A stretch of DNA of 64,000 bases from a virus: positions 1-64,000 of IMG/VR virus record IMGVR_UViG_3300044646_002092; one strand, written 5' to 3'. Position numbers and translations under genes: made by a program. Of the stretch, positions 5,585-61,683 are shown piece after piece. Under the pieces are notes generated by a model. The model ran no database searches. It saw nothing but the letters and a program-made list of their open reading frames with translations, and was not told the origin of the DNA. Positions within the stretch are counted from its first letter, which is position 1, and each line of letters begins with the position of its first letter.

Positions 5585-6300
5585 GGTTGGTTGTCTTGGT
5601 AAATGATTGTGAAAAAAGCTGTTTTGCAAGTGCCTGATTTTACTATAGACCATCCTGCATCAAGTAAAGTCTCTTTGATATATGGAGTACTTTCTTGTAA
5701 TGGTAGCAAATATGTTTTTAATTCTGGGATAGTAATTTTCCTTGCTTTTTTACGAAGCAGTAAACATTCTGCCTTGGTAAGTATTAACGTTTTTTTATCA
5801 ATTTCGTTCAACTGTTCTAGCTGTACATTCCTCCAGTTGTGAGATTTGATAATAGCCTGAGCCATTGTAGAGTGGTGAATTTCTTTATAACCAAAGTGTT
5901 GTGCAAGATAAAGATGAAGTCGGTCATAACCTTCAGCAACTTGCCTCTTTCCTGTCTGCCCTTTGTAAGATATCTTTAAGTTGTCATCTTCTGAGTCTAT
6001 GAATACTTCAAAGCCAGTTAGTAGTTCAGGGCAGTTGGCAAATTTACCTGCTAGAGCCGCTACACCTATGACTTTGGTGCTTTCTACACTTTGTCTGAGT
6101 TGACGTAACTCTAGGGCAATACTTTCGAGGTTATCCCCCATTTTTACGACCATCAACTGAGAGAATGTGGACATCTTAGCTATTTGCCCCTCGTTTTCCC
6201 AATCACTTAATGTCTTTTGAACTAAAGCTCTATCGGCTGGTATTTTTTCAATAGCGGCAATCAGTTCAGCATCTACTTCGTATACTTTATCTATTTCCAC
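5581..6300 (-). CDS. putative DNA-binding protein, paralogue of 20417-21064
   Basis: 239 residues from a GTG. The middle (about 75-115: FANCPELLTGFEVFID then SYKGQ) matches the 20417-21064 protein (LQDNPEYLDGFAIDPE then KYCGQ). Both end in a winged-helix-like segment with a TIPE motif (ITIPELKTYL / VTIPEIYKG). It is the first gene leftward of the control region, and its upstream DNA carries an array of TGTACYT repeats (6317-6498). I infer an autoregulator or replication initiator; no family name recognised. Confidence 0.6.
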   Translation of the reverse strand: MEIDKVYEVDAELIAAIEKIPADRALVQKTLSDWENEGQIAKMSTFSQLMVVKMGDNLESIALELRQLRQSVESTKVIGVAALAGKFANCPELLTGFEVFIDSEDDNLKISYKGQTGKRQVAEGYDRLHLYLAQHFGYKEIHHSTMAQAIIKSHNWRNVQLEQLNEIDKKTLILTKAECLLLRKKARKITIPELKTYLLPLQESTPYIKETLLDAGWSIVKSGTCKTAFFTIIYQDNQP

Positions 6301-27082: not shown

Positions 27083-27301
27083 TTGATTCAAAATGGCAAG
27101 AAACTTCGTAAATTTGGTGGTACTAAGAGTGATGTAAAGTGGGAGACTGAGCGCATGACTCATTGGTTAGAGCATTATGACCTCCATAAACAACTACCTT
27201 ACGCATTAATTAAAGATGTACCTTGTCAATTTGTCGTCTCGAAGTACAACAATCCCCGCACTAAAAAGAAAATTATCATGGAAGTTCGCAATTTTGAATA
27301 G
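27083..27301 (+). CDS. small basic hypothetical protein
   Basis: 72 residues from TTG (IQNGKKLRKFGG). Lys-rich. Overlaps the next gene by 8 bases. Start uncertain. Confidence 0.5.
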   Translation: MIQNGKKLRKFGGTKSDVKWETERMTHWLEHYDLHKQLPYALIKDVPCQFVVSKYNNPRTKKKIIMEVRNFE

Positions 27302-27791
27302 CAATGAACGTTCAAAGACCTTCGCAAAAGGCAATTTCGGTGAAAAAATCGTCAAAGAGTTCTTCATCAGCAAGAACTACGAAGTAATTCCAGCTACACT
27401 TGACCAACAAATCAATGAAAGCTGGGATTTTCGTGTGATTGGCAAAAAAGACTTGCTAATTGAGGTAAAAACCGACTACATGGCAGCTAAAACGGGAAAT
27501 ATTTTCCTTGAAACTGAAGTTGGCGATGGTCTAGGCTTTATTCGCAAGATAAAACCTGACTCAAAAATTATTTTTGCCTTTGTTTTGCCTCAATCTCAAG
27601 AAATTGGGTTTATCGATGCTCAGATGTTGCTGCATATTGAACTAGAAAAGCTACATTTCAAGAAATTTACCCATGTAAGTAACAATTACACTGCTGGAGG
27701 CTATTTATTACCAAGGGCAAATTTCTTTTCTGCCTGTTTTAAGGTATATTATTGGGATAAGTCGGAAAACGGATACACATTTTATACTTAA
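27294..27791 (+). CDS. PD-(D/E)XK nuclease-like protein
   Basis: About 165 residues from TTG at 27294. GNFGEKIVKEFF (12-23) is the helix with the catalytic-type Glu; SWDFRV (about 43-48) and LLIEVKTDY (about 55-63) give D...ExK. The layout matches small resolvase or restriction-type nucleases. It lies directly upstream of the first IsrB locus. Substrate unknown. Confidence 0.6.
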   Translation: MNSNERSKTFAKGNFGEKIVKEFFISKNYEVIPATLDQQINESWDFRVIGKKDLLIEVKTDYMAAKTGNIFLETEVGDGLGFIRKIKPDSKIIFAFVLPQSQEIGFIDAQMLLHIELEKLHFKKFTHVSNNYTAGGYLLPRANFFSACFKVYYWDKSENGYTFYT

Positions 27792-27854
27792 CAGGTGTTT
27801 TTAGTTATTTAGGCGATACTGGTCAATACTTCTTTTGAGGTTGAAAGACAATTA

Positions 27855-28000
27855 TCTTTCTTAAATTGATTAGGTCATTGAGATTCTACTTGGCACAAAC
27901 GTACAGATGCTTCTCCAGTCTGTACCTCTTTAAATCTGAGTTGTCAGATGTTGTGTAATGGCAAGACATCTTAGTAGAATTGACCGAGGAGACTTACAAC
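27855..28000 (+). ncRNA. omega RNA of IsrB copy 1 (candidate guide plus scaffold)
   Basis: Scaffold from TCATTGAG (27875). P1 ATTCTACT (27883-27890) pairs with AGTAGAAT (27973-27980). P2 GTACAGA (27901-27907) pairs with TCTGTAC (27919-27925) around the loop TGCTTCTCCAG. P3 is ATCTGA-GTTG-TCAGAT (27934-27949). The end is GAGGAGACTTA. The element at 60416 has the same layout with compensatory changes in every stem. IscB/IsrB omega RNAs lie upstream of the ORF with the guide at the 5' end, so 27855-27874 is the candidate guide. Overlapping it is a hairpin GAAAGA/TCTTTC (27844-27861). Confidence 0.75.
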
Positions 28001-28025: not shown

Positions 28026-29117
28026 ATGATTAGAGTTCCAGTATTAGACATCGACGGTAATCCGACTATGCCAACTAAAGCCTCAAGAGCTAGACGTTGG
28101 CTACGCGACGGTAAAGCCAAAGTAGTCCACAATGACCTTGGAGTATTCCAAATTCAACTTCTCCAAGAAGCTTCTGGAAATGTTCAACAAGATATTGTTG
28201 TCGGGATTGACCAAGGTAAGCTGTATACGGGGATGGCTATACAGAGTAGTAAAAGTACTTTGTTGATGCTGCATCTTGAGTTACCCCTTCCAGTAGTAGG
28301 TTTTCGTATGAAACAACGTGCAATGCTTCGTAAAACTAGAAGAAGTAGGAGAATAAACAAACGACTAAAATTCAAGTTACGAAATCATAGGCAAAAAAGG
28401 TTCAACAATCCAGCTAGAAAAGAGGGGGTTATTCCCCCATCTATAAACTCTAATAAACAGTTTGAGAGGAGGGTAGTAATTGAATTAAGTAAATTATTTC
28501 CTCTTAGTCATTGTGTTTTTGAATTAGTTAAAGCTAAAGGTAGTAAAAGTTTCAGTCATGTAATGATAGGTCAACGCCAACAAGAAAAATGGTTAAACTC
28601 TATTTTACCAACTATAACTATAGAAGGATGGAAGACCTCTATACTTCGAGATAAATTAGGCTTAGTTAAAAACAAAGCTAACAAATCTATTCAAGAACCT
28701 GCTACTCATGCGATTGACGGTGTAGCCCTTGCTTGTCATCACTTTATTAAGTATGTTGAAGACAAAGTTAATCAGTGTGCTGATTGGTTTGGTGAGGTCA
28801 AAGTTACTAAATCTCAATTTGTTATTGCACGACGACCTAGTTATTCGCGCAGACAGTTATATCAGCTTAACCCTAAAAAACGTGGTAAATATAAGTTGCA
28901 CGGAGGGTCAAGTACACTCAATAATTTCAGAAAGGGTGACATAGTTCTATATACATCCCAAACTAAAACAATTTTGGGATATTGTTCAGGGGCAACATTA
29001 AAAAATAGACTTATATCTATTTCTGATGTAAATTGGCGTGTTATTGGTAAATTTGCTGTCACTAGATGTAAGTTAATATCTCGGTCTTGCGGAATATTGA
29101 TAAAAGTAACTAACTGA
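28026..29117 (+). CDS. isrB: IsrB, RNA-guided RuvC nickase-like protein, copy 1
   Basis: 363 residues. PLMP-type N-terminal domain (GNPTMPTKASRARRWL, 11-26), RuvC-I GIDQG (D62), Arg-rich bridge helix (KTRRSRRINKRL, about 103-114), RuvC-II FELVKA (E166), RuvC-III THAIDGVA (H228, D231). Only 64 residues separate RuvC-II and III, so there is no HNH domain: this is IsrB, not IscB. The C-terminal 120 residues (RRPSYSRRQLY, FRKGDIV) match the target-motif-interacting end. All three acidic residues are present, so DNA nicking is plausible. Known family members use an omega RNA, here just upstream. No TnpA lies nearby. Natural role in phages unknown. Confidence 0.9.
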   Translation: MIRVPVLDIDGNPTMPTKASRARRWLRDGKAKVVHNDLGVFQIQLLQEASGNVQQDIVVGIDQGKLYTGMAIQSSKSTLLMLHLELPLPVVGFRMKQRAMLRKTRRSRRINKRLKFKLRNHRQKRFNNPARKEGVIPPSINSNKQFERRVVIELSKLFPLSHCVFELVKAKGSKSFSHVMIGQRQQEKWLNSILPTITIEGWKTSILRDKLGLVKNKANKSIQEPATHAIDGVALACHHFIKYVEDKVNQCADWFGEVKVTKSQFVIARRPSYSRRQLYQLNPKKRGKYKLHGGSSTLNNFRKGDIVLYTSQTKTILGYCSGATLKNRLISISDVNWRVIGKFAVTRCKLISRSCGILIKVTN

Positions 29118-29170
29118 TAGATACTTATGGGAAGAAGAAGGAAAAAACAGAACATTTTGGAAGGACTAAG

Positions 29171-30006: not shown

Positions 30007-30214
30007 TTTTGCATTGGGTGTGAGAGATATTGTATCAGAGATGACACTATCTGAAGCCGCTAGCTTAGAAGTTGAATTTAGACTGTTTGACCAACTATTA
30101 CCTATTGGCGAGATTCGTGTTGACAGAATCAATAGTAAGGTGTATATCAATGCCTATCCAAGCAAATTAAATACCTCTCCAGATAGACGTACAGAAAAAG
30201 AAGTTGAGTTATAG
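29993..30214 (+). CDS. small hypothetical protein
   Basis: 73 residues (MNFANFALGVRDIVSEMTL). Last gene before the ORF-free structured region. Unknown. Confidence 0.55.
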   Translation: MNFANFALGVRDIVSEMTLSEAASLEVEFRLFDQLLPIGEIRVDRINSKVYINAYPSKLNTSPDRRTEKEVEL

Positions 30215-30220
30215 TAATAA

Positions 30221-30985
30221 ATGTGAGGGAGATATAGTGCAGATGGAAACTCTTGCTCAATCATTGAATAATGATTGATGGCGCAACATAAACGTTAAGA
30301 CGCACTCCCACAATAATGTTTAGTAAGTCGGAGGTGTATCTTCAAACAAACTAAACAACTGGATGGCGGTGAATAGGCAATAAACCGCAGGAACACGTAG
30401 AGGTCATCGGCGTTTTCGCTCATTAACTCCTCATAACGAGCTACTAATGTCCAGCACTATTCCAATCTTATGTGGCTGAGGACGGTTGAAAGCTGAACCC
30501 GAATAAGTAAGGGCATGACTGACTAATTGACACCCCTGAAGTCAGATATTCGATAGGGTGGTCATCAAAGGTTCAAATCCTTTCATAAGCGTTTCGGGGA
30601 ATATCGTAAATTCCTTATACACGAAAGCAAAGAGGTTGTGGTCTTAGGATTTCCCTCTTTGCAATCTGGATATTCGAGGAATAGTCAATACTCGATTTGT
30701 GGGTTCGTTCCTGCTAACCCCAGCCGTAACTTGAGCCTAAGTAATCAAGCCCTGCGAAGTTGGGTCTAGGACAGGGCTATCCAGCCATATCATCGTTTCG
30801 GAGGGTATCGTAAACCCTCTGCACCTCACCTTAGTATAAGCTCTTGCTCCGTCTTAGGATTAGCTGGGATTTGATGCCCAAAGCGAGTTGCCTTGTCAGT
30901 ATGGTCAATCTTATTAAGGTGTACAGCACCTTGCGAGATAATTTCAAACTGAAGCGCCCCTTGAACTTAGGTTAGGGGTATTTTC
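30221..30985 (+). ncRNA. second candidate large structured RNA region
   Basis: About 780 bases without a credible ORF. Stems include CAATCATT-GAAT-AATGATTG (30258-30277), TGTTTAGT/ACTAAACA (30317/30345), GCGGT/ACCGC (30366/30384), CTGACT/AGTCAG (30519/30540), AAAGAGG/CCTCTTT (30630/30654), AGCCCTG/CAGGGCT (about 30749/30772) and AAGGTG-TACAG-CACCTT (about 30916). Two units share an ATCGTAA loop with different, covarying stems (30598-30614 and 30801-30819), each followed by GTCTTAGGATT. It ends with CCCCT/AGGGG (30957/30974). Family unknown. Confidence 0.45.
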
Positions 30986-33230: not shown

Positions 33231-33510
33231 CACTATCAATAAAATCGCTTCGCTCATGGCAGAAGAAGAGTTTGCATGGAAAGAATCTCAGATAATGCAA
33301 ACTATGTTAAGTGAGAATGTATCTTTGCCAGAGGAGTTAAGTAAACTTGGCTGGGGTTTTGGTCTAAAACAAGATTCTGGGCAGTGGAACGTACTTACTT
33401 GGGGTAAATTTACGTCTTGCAACTTTGTCGAGGAGTCGCGGTTTGAGTCAAAGGTAAAACAAGAGTTTGAGGCTATTTGTAAAGAGGCTATGCAGAGGGA
33501 ATTAAGTTAA
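33223..33510 (+). CDS. small hypothetical protein
   Basis: 95 residues, acidic, Trp-containing. TAATG overlap with the endonuclease gene. Unknown. Confidence 0.6.
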   Translation: MNDTINKIASLMAEEEFAWKESQIMQTMLSENVSLPEELSKLGWGFGLKQDSGQWNVLTWGKFTSCNFVEESRFESKVKQEFEAICKEAMQRELS

Positions 33511-34130
33511 TGTTGAAAAATTTTGAAGTTGAGTGGAATAATATAGAGGATTTATCTAAATTACATAAAATTATAAAAGCGAGAATTTGCTCTTTAAAAT
33601 CCGATGGAGCTACTTTTGCTAGTAAGGAAGAAAAAAGGAAAATGATTCTAGATTGTTGTTTTTCAATTTATGAAGCAAATCTAGACCATATATTTGTAAA
33701 AGACAAAGATGCGGCAAGTAATTATTATATCTACGCACATTGCAACCCACTACAGGAATTAGATGCTATTTGCAAAGCTAAACCTGCTTTTGCGGCTACA
33801 TTAGGCTTAAATTTTGTTCCTTTCTATGTTGGAAAAGGTACGGGAGATAGAGCTTATAAACTAGAGCGTAATGAGACTTATAGGAAAGTCATGCAATTAC
33901 TAAATGCTAGAAATTTAAAACCAGACATAAAAATAGTCTCTAATAACTTACAAGAAGCTAAAGCATTAGAATTGGAAGCTAAATTAATAGATATTTTTGG
34001 TCTACAAATTTACGGTGGTTGGTTGACAAATTTAGATGAAGGTCACGACTCTAAGTTAAGAAGGCAGAGGTATGCTAAAGAGTTTAGTGTATTAAATCAA
34101 AAACGTTTTCAATTGTTCTCGGATAATTAA
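33510..34130 (+). CDS. GIY-YIG endonuclease (LEM-3-like)
   Basis: 206 residues. YYIYAH (72-77) and FYVGKGTGDRA (105-115) form the GIY-YIG half-motifs in the LEM-3/SLX-like spacing; E156 and N174 fit the later catalytic positions. A-rich codon use unlike the flanking genes suggests a recently arrived selfish element. It sits in an intercistronic site with a strong terminator after it. Probably a homing-type nuclease; a structure-specific nuclease is the alternative. Confidence 0.75.
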   Translation: MLKNFEVEWNNIEDLSKLHKIIKARICSLKSDGATFASKEEKRKMILDCCFSIYEANLDHIFVKDKDAASNYYIYAHCNPLQELDAICKAKPAFAATLGLNFVPFYVGKGTGDRAYKLERNETYRKVMQLLNARNLKPDIKIVSNNLQEAKALELEAKLIDIFGLQIYGGWLTNLDEGHDSKLRRQRYAKEFSVLNQKRFQLFSDN

Positions 34131-34150
34131 TTTCTACACCACAATACGCA

Positions 34151-34184
34151 AAAAGGAGATGCACATAATACATCTCCTTTTCTT
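34151..34184 (+). terminator. strong intrinsic terminator
   Basis: AAAAGGAGATG (34151-34161) pairs perfectly with CATCTCCTTTT (34171-34181), 11 bp, then CTTT. Confidence 0.8.
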
Positions 34185-34426
34185 TACGCTACTACCAAGC
34201 TAGATTTGCGGGTAAAAGCTACAATTGAGTTTTTGCCATTTGTTTTCTTGTCCCATAGTCCTTACTCATAAAGTAAAAACAGTGATAACTCTTACTAAAA
34301 CGTCGATACCTTTATATGCCCTTGTAGTGGGGCTTGATAGTAGTTAATGGACATAGCATTAATCGAAAATGCGTCCGCCTTAGTTCAACGAAATCTTTCA
34401 AGACATATTAATATTAACATAACACT
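34185..34426. other. intergenic region, possible promoter
   Basis: 242 bases without an ORF. TTGATA (34334-34339), 17-base spacer and CATTAA (34357-34362) resemble a sigma-70 promoter for the 34427 gene. Nothing else recognised. Confidence 0.35.
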
Positions 34427-34651
34427 ATGAAAAAAGCTTGCGGTTTCCGCTTCCAAGGTCACTACGTCTACCGTCAATATTTTGAAGAGCATGGCAGATA
34501 CAAAATCATGGTGTGGGTCGCCTCTAATCCTCCAGAAGAAGAATTGTGCGCTGATGTTGCCTTCTGCGGTGACTCTCACAACGAATGTATGGACAAACTC
34601 AAGCAATGGCTTGAAATCAATAACGATTGGGTAAACAAAACAGATGCCTAA
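34427..34651 (+). CDS. small hypothetical protein
   Basis: 74 residues, aromatic-rich (ACGFRFQGHYVYRQYFEEH). Overlaps the next gene by 8 bases. Unknown. Confidence 0.6.
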   Translation: MKKACGFRFQGHYVYRQYFEEHGRYKIMVWVASNPPEEELCADVAFCGDSHNECMDKLKQWLEINNDWVNKTDA

Positions 34652-59350: not shown

Positions 59351-60274
59351 TTGTTCACAAGCTTCACAGCCCCAAACGGCGACCCCAACAAATCCAGACT
59401 TGGACGCAACAATCGCATTCGGGCGCTCAAGTTCAATTTCAGCTTTGAGAATAGTAGCGACCCAATCTATTCCGTCGGCATCTTACTGAATACAAACGAG
59501 CTGCCTATCGAGTTACTTGCGGCTGAAGACCTCGCAGCAGCTTTGGGCATCACTAAGTACGAAGAACCAGAGAAAGGCGCTACAGGTCAAACCAGAGGCA
59601 CACTGCCTTCTTTTTTGTACTCTACTGATGAAGAAAATTGTGCGAATCTCAAATCCCACATCAATCGTGTTCTTGAAAGTGGGGCAGAAGTTGCTTACAC
59701 TATTAAAGTTGACGGAAGCTCATTCACTGAGTATTTCAAGAAAGATGCTGAAGGCAATTGGTACACAGGTATTTGCTCTCGCTCGTTAGAGAAGAAAATT
59801 ACTGATGACACTGCTGATAGTTGGGTCAAACTGGCTAAGTCTTCTGGATTGTACGAGCGTGGCATGGAATATTGCAAGAAGCACAACGTCGAGTTGGCGT
59901 TTCGGGGAGAAATCTATGGTCAGGGCTTGAAAGGTAGCGGCAATAAGCTGAATCCAGATGCTAATAAGAAGCAAGGACTAATTCTTTTCGGTATCGATAA
60001 CTTATCAAGTGGTTTTGCTACTCGAATCCATTATGGTCAGCCTCACAATCTTGAACTTGTTTGCGACGAACTGCAACTCCAATATACTCCTTTAGTAAGG
60101 TTTTTCTCCCAATTTCGCCCCAAAAATTACGACGAACTAATCTCGTTTGCTTCTGATGTTTTTAAAAGAGAAAAAGAAGCTGGTCGAGTCGTTGAGGGTA
60201 TTGTCGTTCGCACACTTTACTCAAACGATTTGTCGGTCAAGGTCATGAACCCATACTACGACAGCAAAAAATAA
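59351..60274 (+). CDS. RNA ligase, catalytic part (Rnl2/PF09414-like)
   Basis: 307 residues from a TTG at 59351; the full-length form would start at 59144. Nucleotidyltransferase motif I AYTIKVDGSSFTEYF (K in KVDG, about 117-131), motif III/IIIa ELAFRGEIYGQGLKG (about 185-199), motif IV EGIVVRT and motif V LSVKVMNPYYDSKK at the C-terminus. RNA ligases seal nicked RNA, for example tRNAs cut by host anticodon nucleases. Catalytic motifs are intact, but the N-terminal part is separated by an in-frame stop, so expression is uncertain. Confidence 0.75.
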   Translation: MFTSFTAPNGDPNKSRLGRNNRIRALKFNFSFENSSDPIYSVGILLNTNELPIELLAAEDLAAALGITKYEEPEKGATGQTRGTLPSFLYSTDEENCANLKSHINRVLESGAEVAYTIKVDGSSFTEYFKKDAEGNWYTGICSRSLEKKITDDTADSWVKLAKSSGLYERGMEYCKKHNVELAFRGEIYGQGLKGSGNKLNPDANKKQGLILFGIDNLSSGFATRIHYGQPHNLELVCDELQLQYTPLVRFFSQFRPKNYDELISFASDVFKREKEAGRVVEGIVVRTLYSNDLSVKVMNPYYDSKK

Positions 60275-60355
60275 TACTAGATGTACTTCGCTAGGTAGAG
60301 GACAAAAAACTATACTTTTGCATATAATAAAGAAATGAACCCTGAGTTTCACTAA

Positions 60356-60398
60356 CCCTACTTTTTAAAATAGGGATTAACCTAATCAGTTAGGTTAA
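60356..60398. repeat. two perfect hairpins upstream of the second IsrB omega RNA
   Basis: CCCTA/TAGGG (60356-60360, 60371-60375) and TTAACCTAA-TCAG-TTAGGTTAA (60377-60398, 9-bp stem). Their place at the 5' boundary of the element resembles the left-end hairpins of IS200/IS605-type elements; no such pair precedes the first copy exactly, which has GAAAGA/TCTTTC instead. Confidence 0.5.
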
Positions 60399-60540
60399 CG
60401 TAAGAAGCGAATAGCTCATTGAGACTTGATTTGGTACAGACTTCCGAATGCTTCTCTAGTTCGGATTATCTCTAAACCTGATTGTTCAGGTGTTGGGTAA
60501 AGCCAAGACATCTTAATCAAGTTGAGCGAGGAGACTTAAA
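60396..60540 (+). ncRNA. omega RNA of IsrB copy 2 (candidate guide plus scaffold)
   Basis: Scaffold from TCATTGAG (60416). P1 ACTTGATT (60424-60431) pairs with AATCAAGT (60515-60522). P2 TCCGAA (60443-60448) pairs with TTCGGA (60460-60465) around the loop TGCTTCTCTAG. P3 is ACCTGA-TTGT-TCAGGT (60476-60491). Then CCAAGACATCTT and GAGCGAGGAGACTTA as in copy 1. Stems differ from copy 1 by compensatory changes while loops are kept. Candidate guide 60396-60415, unlike that of copy 1. Confidence 0.75.
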
Positions 60541-60561
60541 CAATTTTGGGTTATACCAACA

Positions 60562-61659
60562 ATGCGTATTCCAGTAGTAGATACAAATCATCAACCCTTA
60601 ATGCCTACTACACCCGCGAGAGCTAGAAAGTGGATTGAATCTGGCAAAGCGGTAAAACGTTGGTCAGATTGTGGTCAGTTCTACGTTCAGCTACAAGTAG
60701 AGCCATCTGGAAAAGAAAAGCAAGCTATTGTCATCGGGCTTGATTCAGGCAAGAAATATTCAGGTATAGGTGTGCAATCTGCAAAATTCACTTTATACTC
60801 AACCCATTTAAAATTACCATTTCAGATGGTGAGGAATCGGATGGAACTAAGAGGGTTATTGCGAAGAAGTCGTCGGGGTCGCAGAATTAATCGCAAGGTA
60901 AAGTTCTCAAAACGCGCTCATAGACAATTAAGGTTCTCGAACCGCAGGAAAACTAAACTAGCCCCGTCAATCCGTTCTAATCGGCAACTAGAACTTCGTA
61001 TTATATCCGAATTGTGTAAGATTTTTCCAATCAGCGCAATTAGATATGAATATGTAAAAGCAGACATAGATTTAACTAGTGGACGCAAAAAAGCAAGGTC
61101 AGGTAAAAGTTTTTCTCCTGTTATGGTCGGTCAGAAATGGTTGATTGAACAGTTAAATAAATTCGCCACCACTACCACTATTTTTGGCTATCAAACATCC
61201 CTAGTACGTTCTCACCTCGGTTTGGTAAAAAATAAAAATGATAAATCAAAACCTTGCTTTGAGACACACGCTGTTGATGGAGTAGCTATTGCTTGCTCCC
61301 ATTTTGTAGAGTATAAAAAATACCATAAACAAGGAGAGGATGGAGCAGATTGGGTTGGTGCAGTCAGTGTTACTAAAGCTTCTTTTTTTGTAATTCGCAG
61401 ACCATCTTTTTCTCGTCGCCAATTACATTTGATAATACCAATTAAAGGTGGTGTTAGGCATAAATATGGAGGCTCTACTACCCGACACGGTTTCCGTAAG
61501 GGAGATTTAGTAAGCTCCCCTAAAGGTATTGGCTATATTAGTGGCGATACTGTAAAAGCCGTATCTGTTAGCGATTTCAACTGGAAAAGATTAGGGCAAA
61601 TAGCCCCCAGTAAAATTAGATTGATACACCGTTCAAATGGGTTAGTTGTTACTTCCTAA
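60562..61659 (+). CDS. isrB: IsrB, RNA-guided RuvC nickase-like protein, copy 2
   Basis: 365 residues. QPLMPTTPARARKWI (11-25) is the PLMP motif; RuvC-I GLDSG (D61), bridge helix LLRRSRRGRRINRK (99-112), RuvC-II YEYVKA (E163), RuvC-III THAVDGVA (H236, D239), then the C-terminal RRPSFSRRQLH and FRKGDLV. There is no HNH between E163 and D239. Similar to copy 1 along its length but strongly diverged, so not a recent duplicate. All catalytic acids kept. Last major gene before the rightward cluster ends; no transposase near. Confidence 0.9.
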   Translation: MRIPVVDTNHQPLMPTTPARARKWIESGKAVKRWSDCGQFYVQLQVEPSGKEKQAIVIGLDSGKKYSGIGVQSAKFTLYSTHLKLPFQMVRNRMELRGLLRRSRRGRRINRKVKFSKRAHRQLRFSNRRKTKLAPSIRSNRQLELRIISELCKIFPISAIRYEYVKADIDLTSGRKKARSGKSFSPVMVGQKWLIEQLNKFATTTTIFGYQTSLVRSHLGLVKNKNDKSKPCFETHAVDGVAIACSHFVEYKKYHKQGEDGADWVGAVSVTKASFFVIRRPSFSRRQLHLIIPIKGGVRHKYGGSTTRHGFRKGDLVSSPKGIGYISGDTVKAVSVSDFNWKRLGQIAPSKIRLIHRSNGLVVTS

Positions 61660-61683
61660 GTTAATACGACAGTAAGAAATAAT

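Follow-up and report, generated by a model that had tools for sequence, protein, structure and literature searches.

The window analysed here, the first 64,000 nucleotides of IMG/VR virus record IMGVR_UViG_3300044646_002092, carries two genes for IsrB, a protein of the RNA-guided RuvC nuclease families: copy 1, an intact open reading frame (ORF) of 363 aa at 28026-29117 (+) that encodes a full-length IsrB, and copy 2 further downstream (Table 1). Each copy is probably a transposase-free, RNA-guided homing element that supplies a substitute end for the gene it interrupts. The observations are the identity of the protein and its RNA, the empty sites, the duplication of gene ends, the resemblance of the guides to uninterrupted genes and the junction positions; active nicking, copying driven by repair and spread during coinfection would be the steps that connect them. 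A third phage copy, in the related contig L094, shows the same design as copies 1 and 2. We give an even chance to the broader proposal that IsrB became an RNA-programmed homing nickase in phages on at least two occasions (once in the lineage of copy 1 and L094, once in copy 2), free of transposase, inserted at its own nick and equipped with a substitute 3′ end that restores the gene and removes the target, the copy 1/L094 lineage having been retargeted to another site with a new guide.

Copy 1 belongs to IsrB: it has the PLMP/RRXRR domain, a split RuvC domain, a bridge helix and an upstream omega RNA, and it has no HNH domain. Pfam family PF14239 (RRXRR) matched it at 1.1e-42, and DtIsrB (8dmb) was its top match in a search of the PDB (copy 1 residues 2-358, 5.9e-35); IscB entries gave partial matches, mainly to the N-terminal part. 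The alignment to DtIsrB extended over the full length without insertion, indicating that an HNH domain is absent. Among 34 aligned homologs D62, E166 and D231 were invariant, as was the MPT motif of the PLMP/RRXRR domain, and the arginine-rich bridge helix (R102/R105/R106) was conserved or invariant. A fold search with the AlphaFold model of copy 1 (pLDDT 86, pTM 0.84) ranked DtIsrB first (E 6.4e-30, TMt 0.81), and the rates of nonsynonymous and synonymous change between copy 1 and L094 (dN 0.27 versus dS 1.77) revealed purifying selection. All three catalytic RuvC residues are kept in copy 1, copy 2 and L094. A preliminary description made from the sequence had called the ORF an IsrB with PLMP domain, bridge helix and RuvC residues intact and no HNH domain between RuvC-II and RuvC-III, and had named a profile search and structure prediction as checks; these place copy 1 within the RRXRR superfamily with a fold closest to DtIsrB, and the description holds on each of these points. 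Copy 1 is thus an IsrB by membership and a predicted HNH-less RuvC nickase, and it would work like a homing element.

The record is a virus contig of 116,444 bp, from a cyanobacterial phage, and is syntenic with the Pseudanabaena phages Pam2 and PA-SR01, confirming the phage location proposed for copy 1. The reported lack of a nearby TnpA extends to the entire record, in which no match to the Y1 transposase (PF01797) was detected, although a host TnpA could still have acted in trans. IsrB homologs are widespread among cyanobacteria; profile searches also found homologs in viral contigs, where a search with a single sequence had returned no matches. In the tree, copy 1 pairs with the phage copy L094 beside a Pseudanabaena chromosomal copy (L003) and copy 2 falls into a group with L116 and L118, both viral, and because of this different placement the two copies are taken to be separate acquisitions. 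The tree also contains a deep IsrB-like clade (L124-L140, minus L128, L133 and L134) at about 30% identity, whose members in our sample are viral only.

Immediately upstream of each IsrB gene lies a match to the whole HEARO model, in both cases below the Rfam curated cut-off. Covariation in a 20-locus omega RNA alignment was strong, with compensated two-sided changes at 31 of 37 consensus pairs, and copy 1, copy 2 and L094 all retain an intact core helix. The start of the copy 1 RNA, previously expected near 27855, has to be moved: the scaffold begins at 27822, with the guide just 5′ of it. Guides were taken as the 16 nt immediately 5′ of the scaffold, a length that was assumed.

Both copies lie in the 3′ end of a gene that is uninterrupted in relatives. 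For copy 1 this gene encodes a PD-(D/E)XK-like protein with a conserved WDFRV..LLIEVK motif, for which a Pfam search gave no significant match; homologs with empty sites are present in L087, L088 and L091-L097, and a further profile search for this gene gave seven contigs, the same set as before. A PD-(D/E)XK gene had been described as the neighbour of copy 1, and a PD-(D/E)XK-like gene is there, but copy 1 sits inside its 3′ end rather than merely beside it. For copy 2 the interrupted gene is an RNA ligase. Neither site holds an IsrB in Pam2, in PA-SR01 or in those IMG/VR relatives with the two target genes. At each copy the native 3′ end is orphaned to the right of IsrB, and a diverged 3′ end that keeps the frame stands to the left. 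The left flank of copy 1 is identical to L091 at 145 of 150 positions upstream and then falls to 35 of 60, and that of copy 2 is identical to L098 over 73 nt, with divergence after that. The duplication of gene ends is visible only by comparison with native relatives; when 108 loci were put to a general test for duplication between the translated left and right flanks, copy 1 was not in the top 15 and copy 2 reached only p ~0.018. L094 carries its IsrB at another site, a conserved noncoding region that corresponds to window positions 30190-30830. The 3′ end of the RNA ligase gene hosts GIY-YIG genes elsewhere (L099, PF01541 at 3.3e-10; more weakly L105, 0.0029), and this site has therefore already been used by homing-type genes.

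Table 1. Features of the two IsrB loci, in window coordinates.
Feature	Position	Strand	Basis
Copy 1 target gene, PD-(D/E)XK-like ORF, element in 3′ end, frame open	27216..27791	+	Empty-site homologs
Substitute 3′ end of copy 1 target gene, left of guide, KVYYWDKSENGYTFYT*	27742..27791	+	Comparison with L091
Putative guide of copy 1, TATTTAGGCGATACTG	27806..27821	+	12/16 against L093 native site, then CTGG
Omega RNA scaffold (HEARO), copy 1	27822..27997	+	RF02033 whole model, E 1.6e-7, 45.2 bits against a gathering score of 83; covariation
Orphaned native 3′ end of copy 1 target gene, RYLWEEEGKNRTFWKD*	29118..29169	+	Alignment to natives L091, L092, L093
Copy 2 target gene, RNA ligase	59351..60274	+	Pfam RNA_ligase 2.1e-8; empty-site homologs
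Substitute RNA ligase 3′ end PYYDSKK*, target seed and target-adjacent motif changed	60250..60274	+	Comparison with L098
Promoter-like match AGGACA-18-TATAAT, just upstream of copy 2 guide	60299..60328	+	Consensus only; shuffles give about as many
Putative guide of copy 2, GAAATGAACCCTGAGT	60332..60347	+	12/16 against L099 native, then ATGA
Omega RNA scaffold (HEARO), copy 2	60348..60541	+	RF02033 whole model, E 5.7e-5; covariation
IsrB copy 2	60562..61659	+	RRXRR 6.1e-47; 49% identical to copy 1
Orphaned native RNA ligase 3′ end YDSKK*	61663..61682	+	Alignment to native relatives

The putative guides resemble the sites that the elements occupy. For guide 1 the final 8 of the 16 positions match the L093 native site contiguously; guide 2 and the native RNA ligase gene encode the same MNPE residues with different codons; and the L094 guide matches its native site at 13 of 16 positions, next to a native target-adjacent motif (TAM) of TAGG. 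The TAM is CTGG at the L093 native site and ATGA at that of L099. Random 16-mers from these phages scored at least as well near the junction in 2.3% (copy 1), 1.6% (copy 2) and 0.09% (L094) of cases. No strong self-target with a TAM was found in the carrier window. The substitute ends lack both the target seed and an NTG TAM.

The junctions of the phage copies were then set against the published activity of IsrB, which in DtIsrB nicks the non-target strand 8-11 nt upstream of the TAM; cyanobacterial IsrBs use NTG TAMs (PMC9581776). Divergence from the native sequence starts at -10 (copy 1), -8 (copy 2) and -10 (L094) from the deduced TAM, which fits the published nick position, and by analogy the phage copies would cleave at the same place. 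On the right, native sequence returns at about -9, -3 and -8, respectively, and the residual TAM of copy 1 is ATGG (29127-29130), ~9 nt downstream of the restart. Near-identical IS-type (insertion sequence) copies at different sites served as a control: their left end coincides with the start of the scaffold and their right end directly precedes ATGA, so that their left flank is the guide and the TAM abuts the element. Because IS-type copies start at the scaffold and abut the TAM, the phage copies look unlike IS insertions, and ordinary IS insertion was rejected on these junctions. After the phage IsrB genes there is neither an IS right end nor a hairpin, the distance from stop codon to native flank being 2 nt for copy 1, 3 nt for copy 2 and ~10 for L094; the TAM is off the right junction and, as noted, the record holds no Y1 transposase, so that the hallmarks of IS200/IS605-type elements are missing. 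In this the three phage copies resemble homing enzymes encoded in introns, whose insertion points lie near the cleavage site (PMC2988022).

Decayed IS200/IS605-type insertions offer a different and, in our view, unlikely account of the same loci, in which a host TnpA acted in trans and later recombination lost the right end and rearranged the flanks to give duplicated ends. Close IsrB relatives are indeed IS-type in cyanobacteria and in other phages, and viral L109 and a copy from Dolichospermum are nearly identical. However, all three phage copies lack a right end, stand off the TAM and hold the guide within the inserted unit, and decay would need one coincidental rearrangement for each of them.

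Each element consists, in this order, of the substitute 3′ end of the interrupted gene, the guide, the omega RNA scaffold and IsrB, and in related phages the same gene, uninterrupted, contains a sequence that the guide resembles. In the proposed homing, IsrB would nick the uninterrupted gene of a coinfecting relative; phage recombination would then mend the nick with the element-bearing genome as template, so that the element is copied into that position. The substitute end would keep the gene readable while lacking the target, its seed bases and TAM having been changed, and carriers would be immune because of this missing target.

Several observations weigh against homing as we describe it. 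Among 522,000 positions scanned, guides 1 and 2 did not single out the native site, since elsewhere in the relatives there are matches as good or better, and the targeting argument for these two guides therefore rests on position and similarity. Exact cognate targets of the guides were sought in viral contigs and none was found. A degenerate pattern of guide 1 plus TAM gave, among the matches listed, four with the fuller TTTA in these contigs, none in recognisable target-gene context; the guide 2 pattern returned RNA ligases of the same family as the copy 2 target, in L294 (the L102 contig) and L288, among unrelated matches, and no exact guide match was established. The native TAM of L094 is not NTG, and the right junction of copy 2 (-3) and its residual TAM ACGA fit less cleanly. 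The junction rule was noticed after the data had been seen, in three cases, and in copies 1 and 2 the gene ends are homologous to the native ones, so that the left boundaries are uncertain and could lie further upstream. Finally, the RNA ligase of L103 (IMGVR_UViG_3300042359_000646, 5880-5918) terminates in NPYYDSKK, resembling the substitute end of copy 2, and has no IsrB. This end is possibly a target-lacking allele. The substitute end of L094 resembles the form of the noncoding region found in the window and in L093, a form without the L094 target; the L094 and L103 ends fit substitute ends drawn from target-lacking alleles, and ordinary variation fits too.

The preliminary description had offered either a homing-type element or a tool against rivals or host DNA. 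Empty sites, guides and insertion at the expected nick position favour homing; a weapon for superinfection exclusion, with IsrB damaging element-free rivals and inheritance of the element being secondary, is less probable still than decayed insertions. In its favour, the guides point to genes that related phages carry, and these genes are altered in the carrier itself, but nicking one strand does only mild damage, and homing better accounts for an insertion placed exactly at the targeted gene. These readings are compatible, since homing and the exclusion of element-free relatives would use the same cut. An exapted RNA-guided regulator like TldR, binding without cutting, is very improbable: none of the three RuvC catalytic residues has been lost from either copy or from L094, the guides point to the 3′ ends of genes rather than to promoters, and a catalytically dead regulator was rejected on the invariance of D62/E166/D231.

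IsrB, HEARO RNAs, the TnpB drive and phage homing endonucleases are already known; what is new is the genomic context of the phage copies. The IsrBs of IS200/IS605-type elements (DtIsrB and cyanobacterial) share the architecture, the upstream omega RNA, the catalytic residues and the TAM type, whereas the phage copies have no right end, lie off the TAM, contain the guide inside the insert and replace the gene end. TnpB drives insertion sequences in plasmids (PMC11870625), where an RNA-guided nuclease likewise favours element-bearing copies by cutting element-free ones; TnpB, however, is a double-strand cutter in an IS made mobile by a transposase, whereas the phage IsrB would be a nickase with neither transposase nor IS right end. 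The intron-encoded I-TevI and the nicking I-HmuI insert close to their own cleavage site and leave the occupied allele uncut, as the phage IsrB would, but the phage IsrB has no intron or intein, its specificity would be set by a guide RNA, and a substitute 3′ end repairs the gene. Free-standing Seg and Mob enzymes (intronless homing) likewise do without an intron, some of them nick, and nearby genes differ in carriers; they lie between genes and their cut falls at a distance of hundreds to thousands of bp from the enzyme gene, whereas the IsrB insert lies within its presumed target. The Microcystis phages Ma-LMM01 and MaMV also bear an IsrB with a HEARO-like upstream RNA, their RRXRR proteins having 46% identity to copy 1 and 64% to copy 2, but these elements have IS-type ends, with a right end and ATGA at the junction, unlike copies 1 and 2. 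In Ma-LMM01 (L089, 4676-4830), several array-like repeats of the omega RNA 5′ end (GTCACTAACCCCG..) with short unique spacers lie upstream of IsrB. A literature search that left many journals and preprints outside its range turned up no account of phage homing by IsrB or IscB.

If correct, homing by phage IsrB would connect phage homing endonucleases to the RNA-guided nucleases of transposons, which are related to the ancestor of Cas9, and would give an RNA-guided nickase a natural role, as a natural gene drive that carries a substitute copy of the gene it damages. It would also provide a testable case for how a single-strand nick drives homing, a question raised as open in PMC2988022, with concrete guides, targets and junctions that can now be tested in isolated Pseudanabaena phages.

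Other features of these phages were recorded alongside the IsrB loci. The window's noncoding region at 30190-30830 is conserved with L091-L097, is partly variable and includes a tRNA T-arm-like stretch; an Rfam search of it gave no match. In PA-SR01, ORF81 has been reported as an IS200/IS605 TnpB ~90% similar to a Tolypothrix protein (PMC10286775). The window also contains a permuted-type transfer-messenger RNA (tmRNA) gene at 34093-34437 (-), which matched Rfam RF04321 above the gathering score and for which ARAGORN gave the tag peptide GKNSIVAFTRKSSLVVA; beside it, the ORF at 33510-34130 has a weak GIY-YIG match (LEM-3-like, E 0.016).
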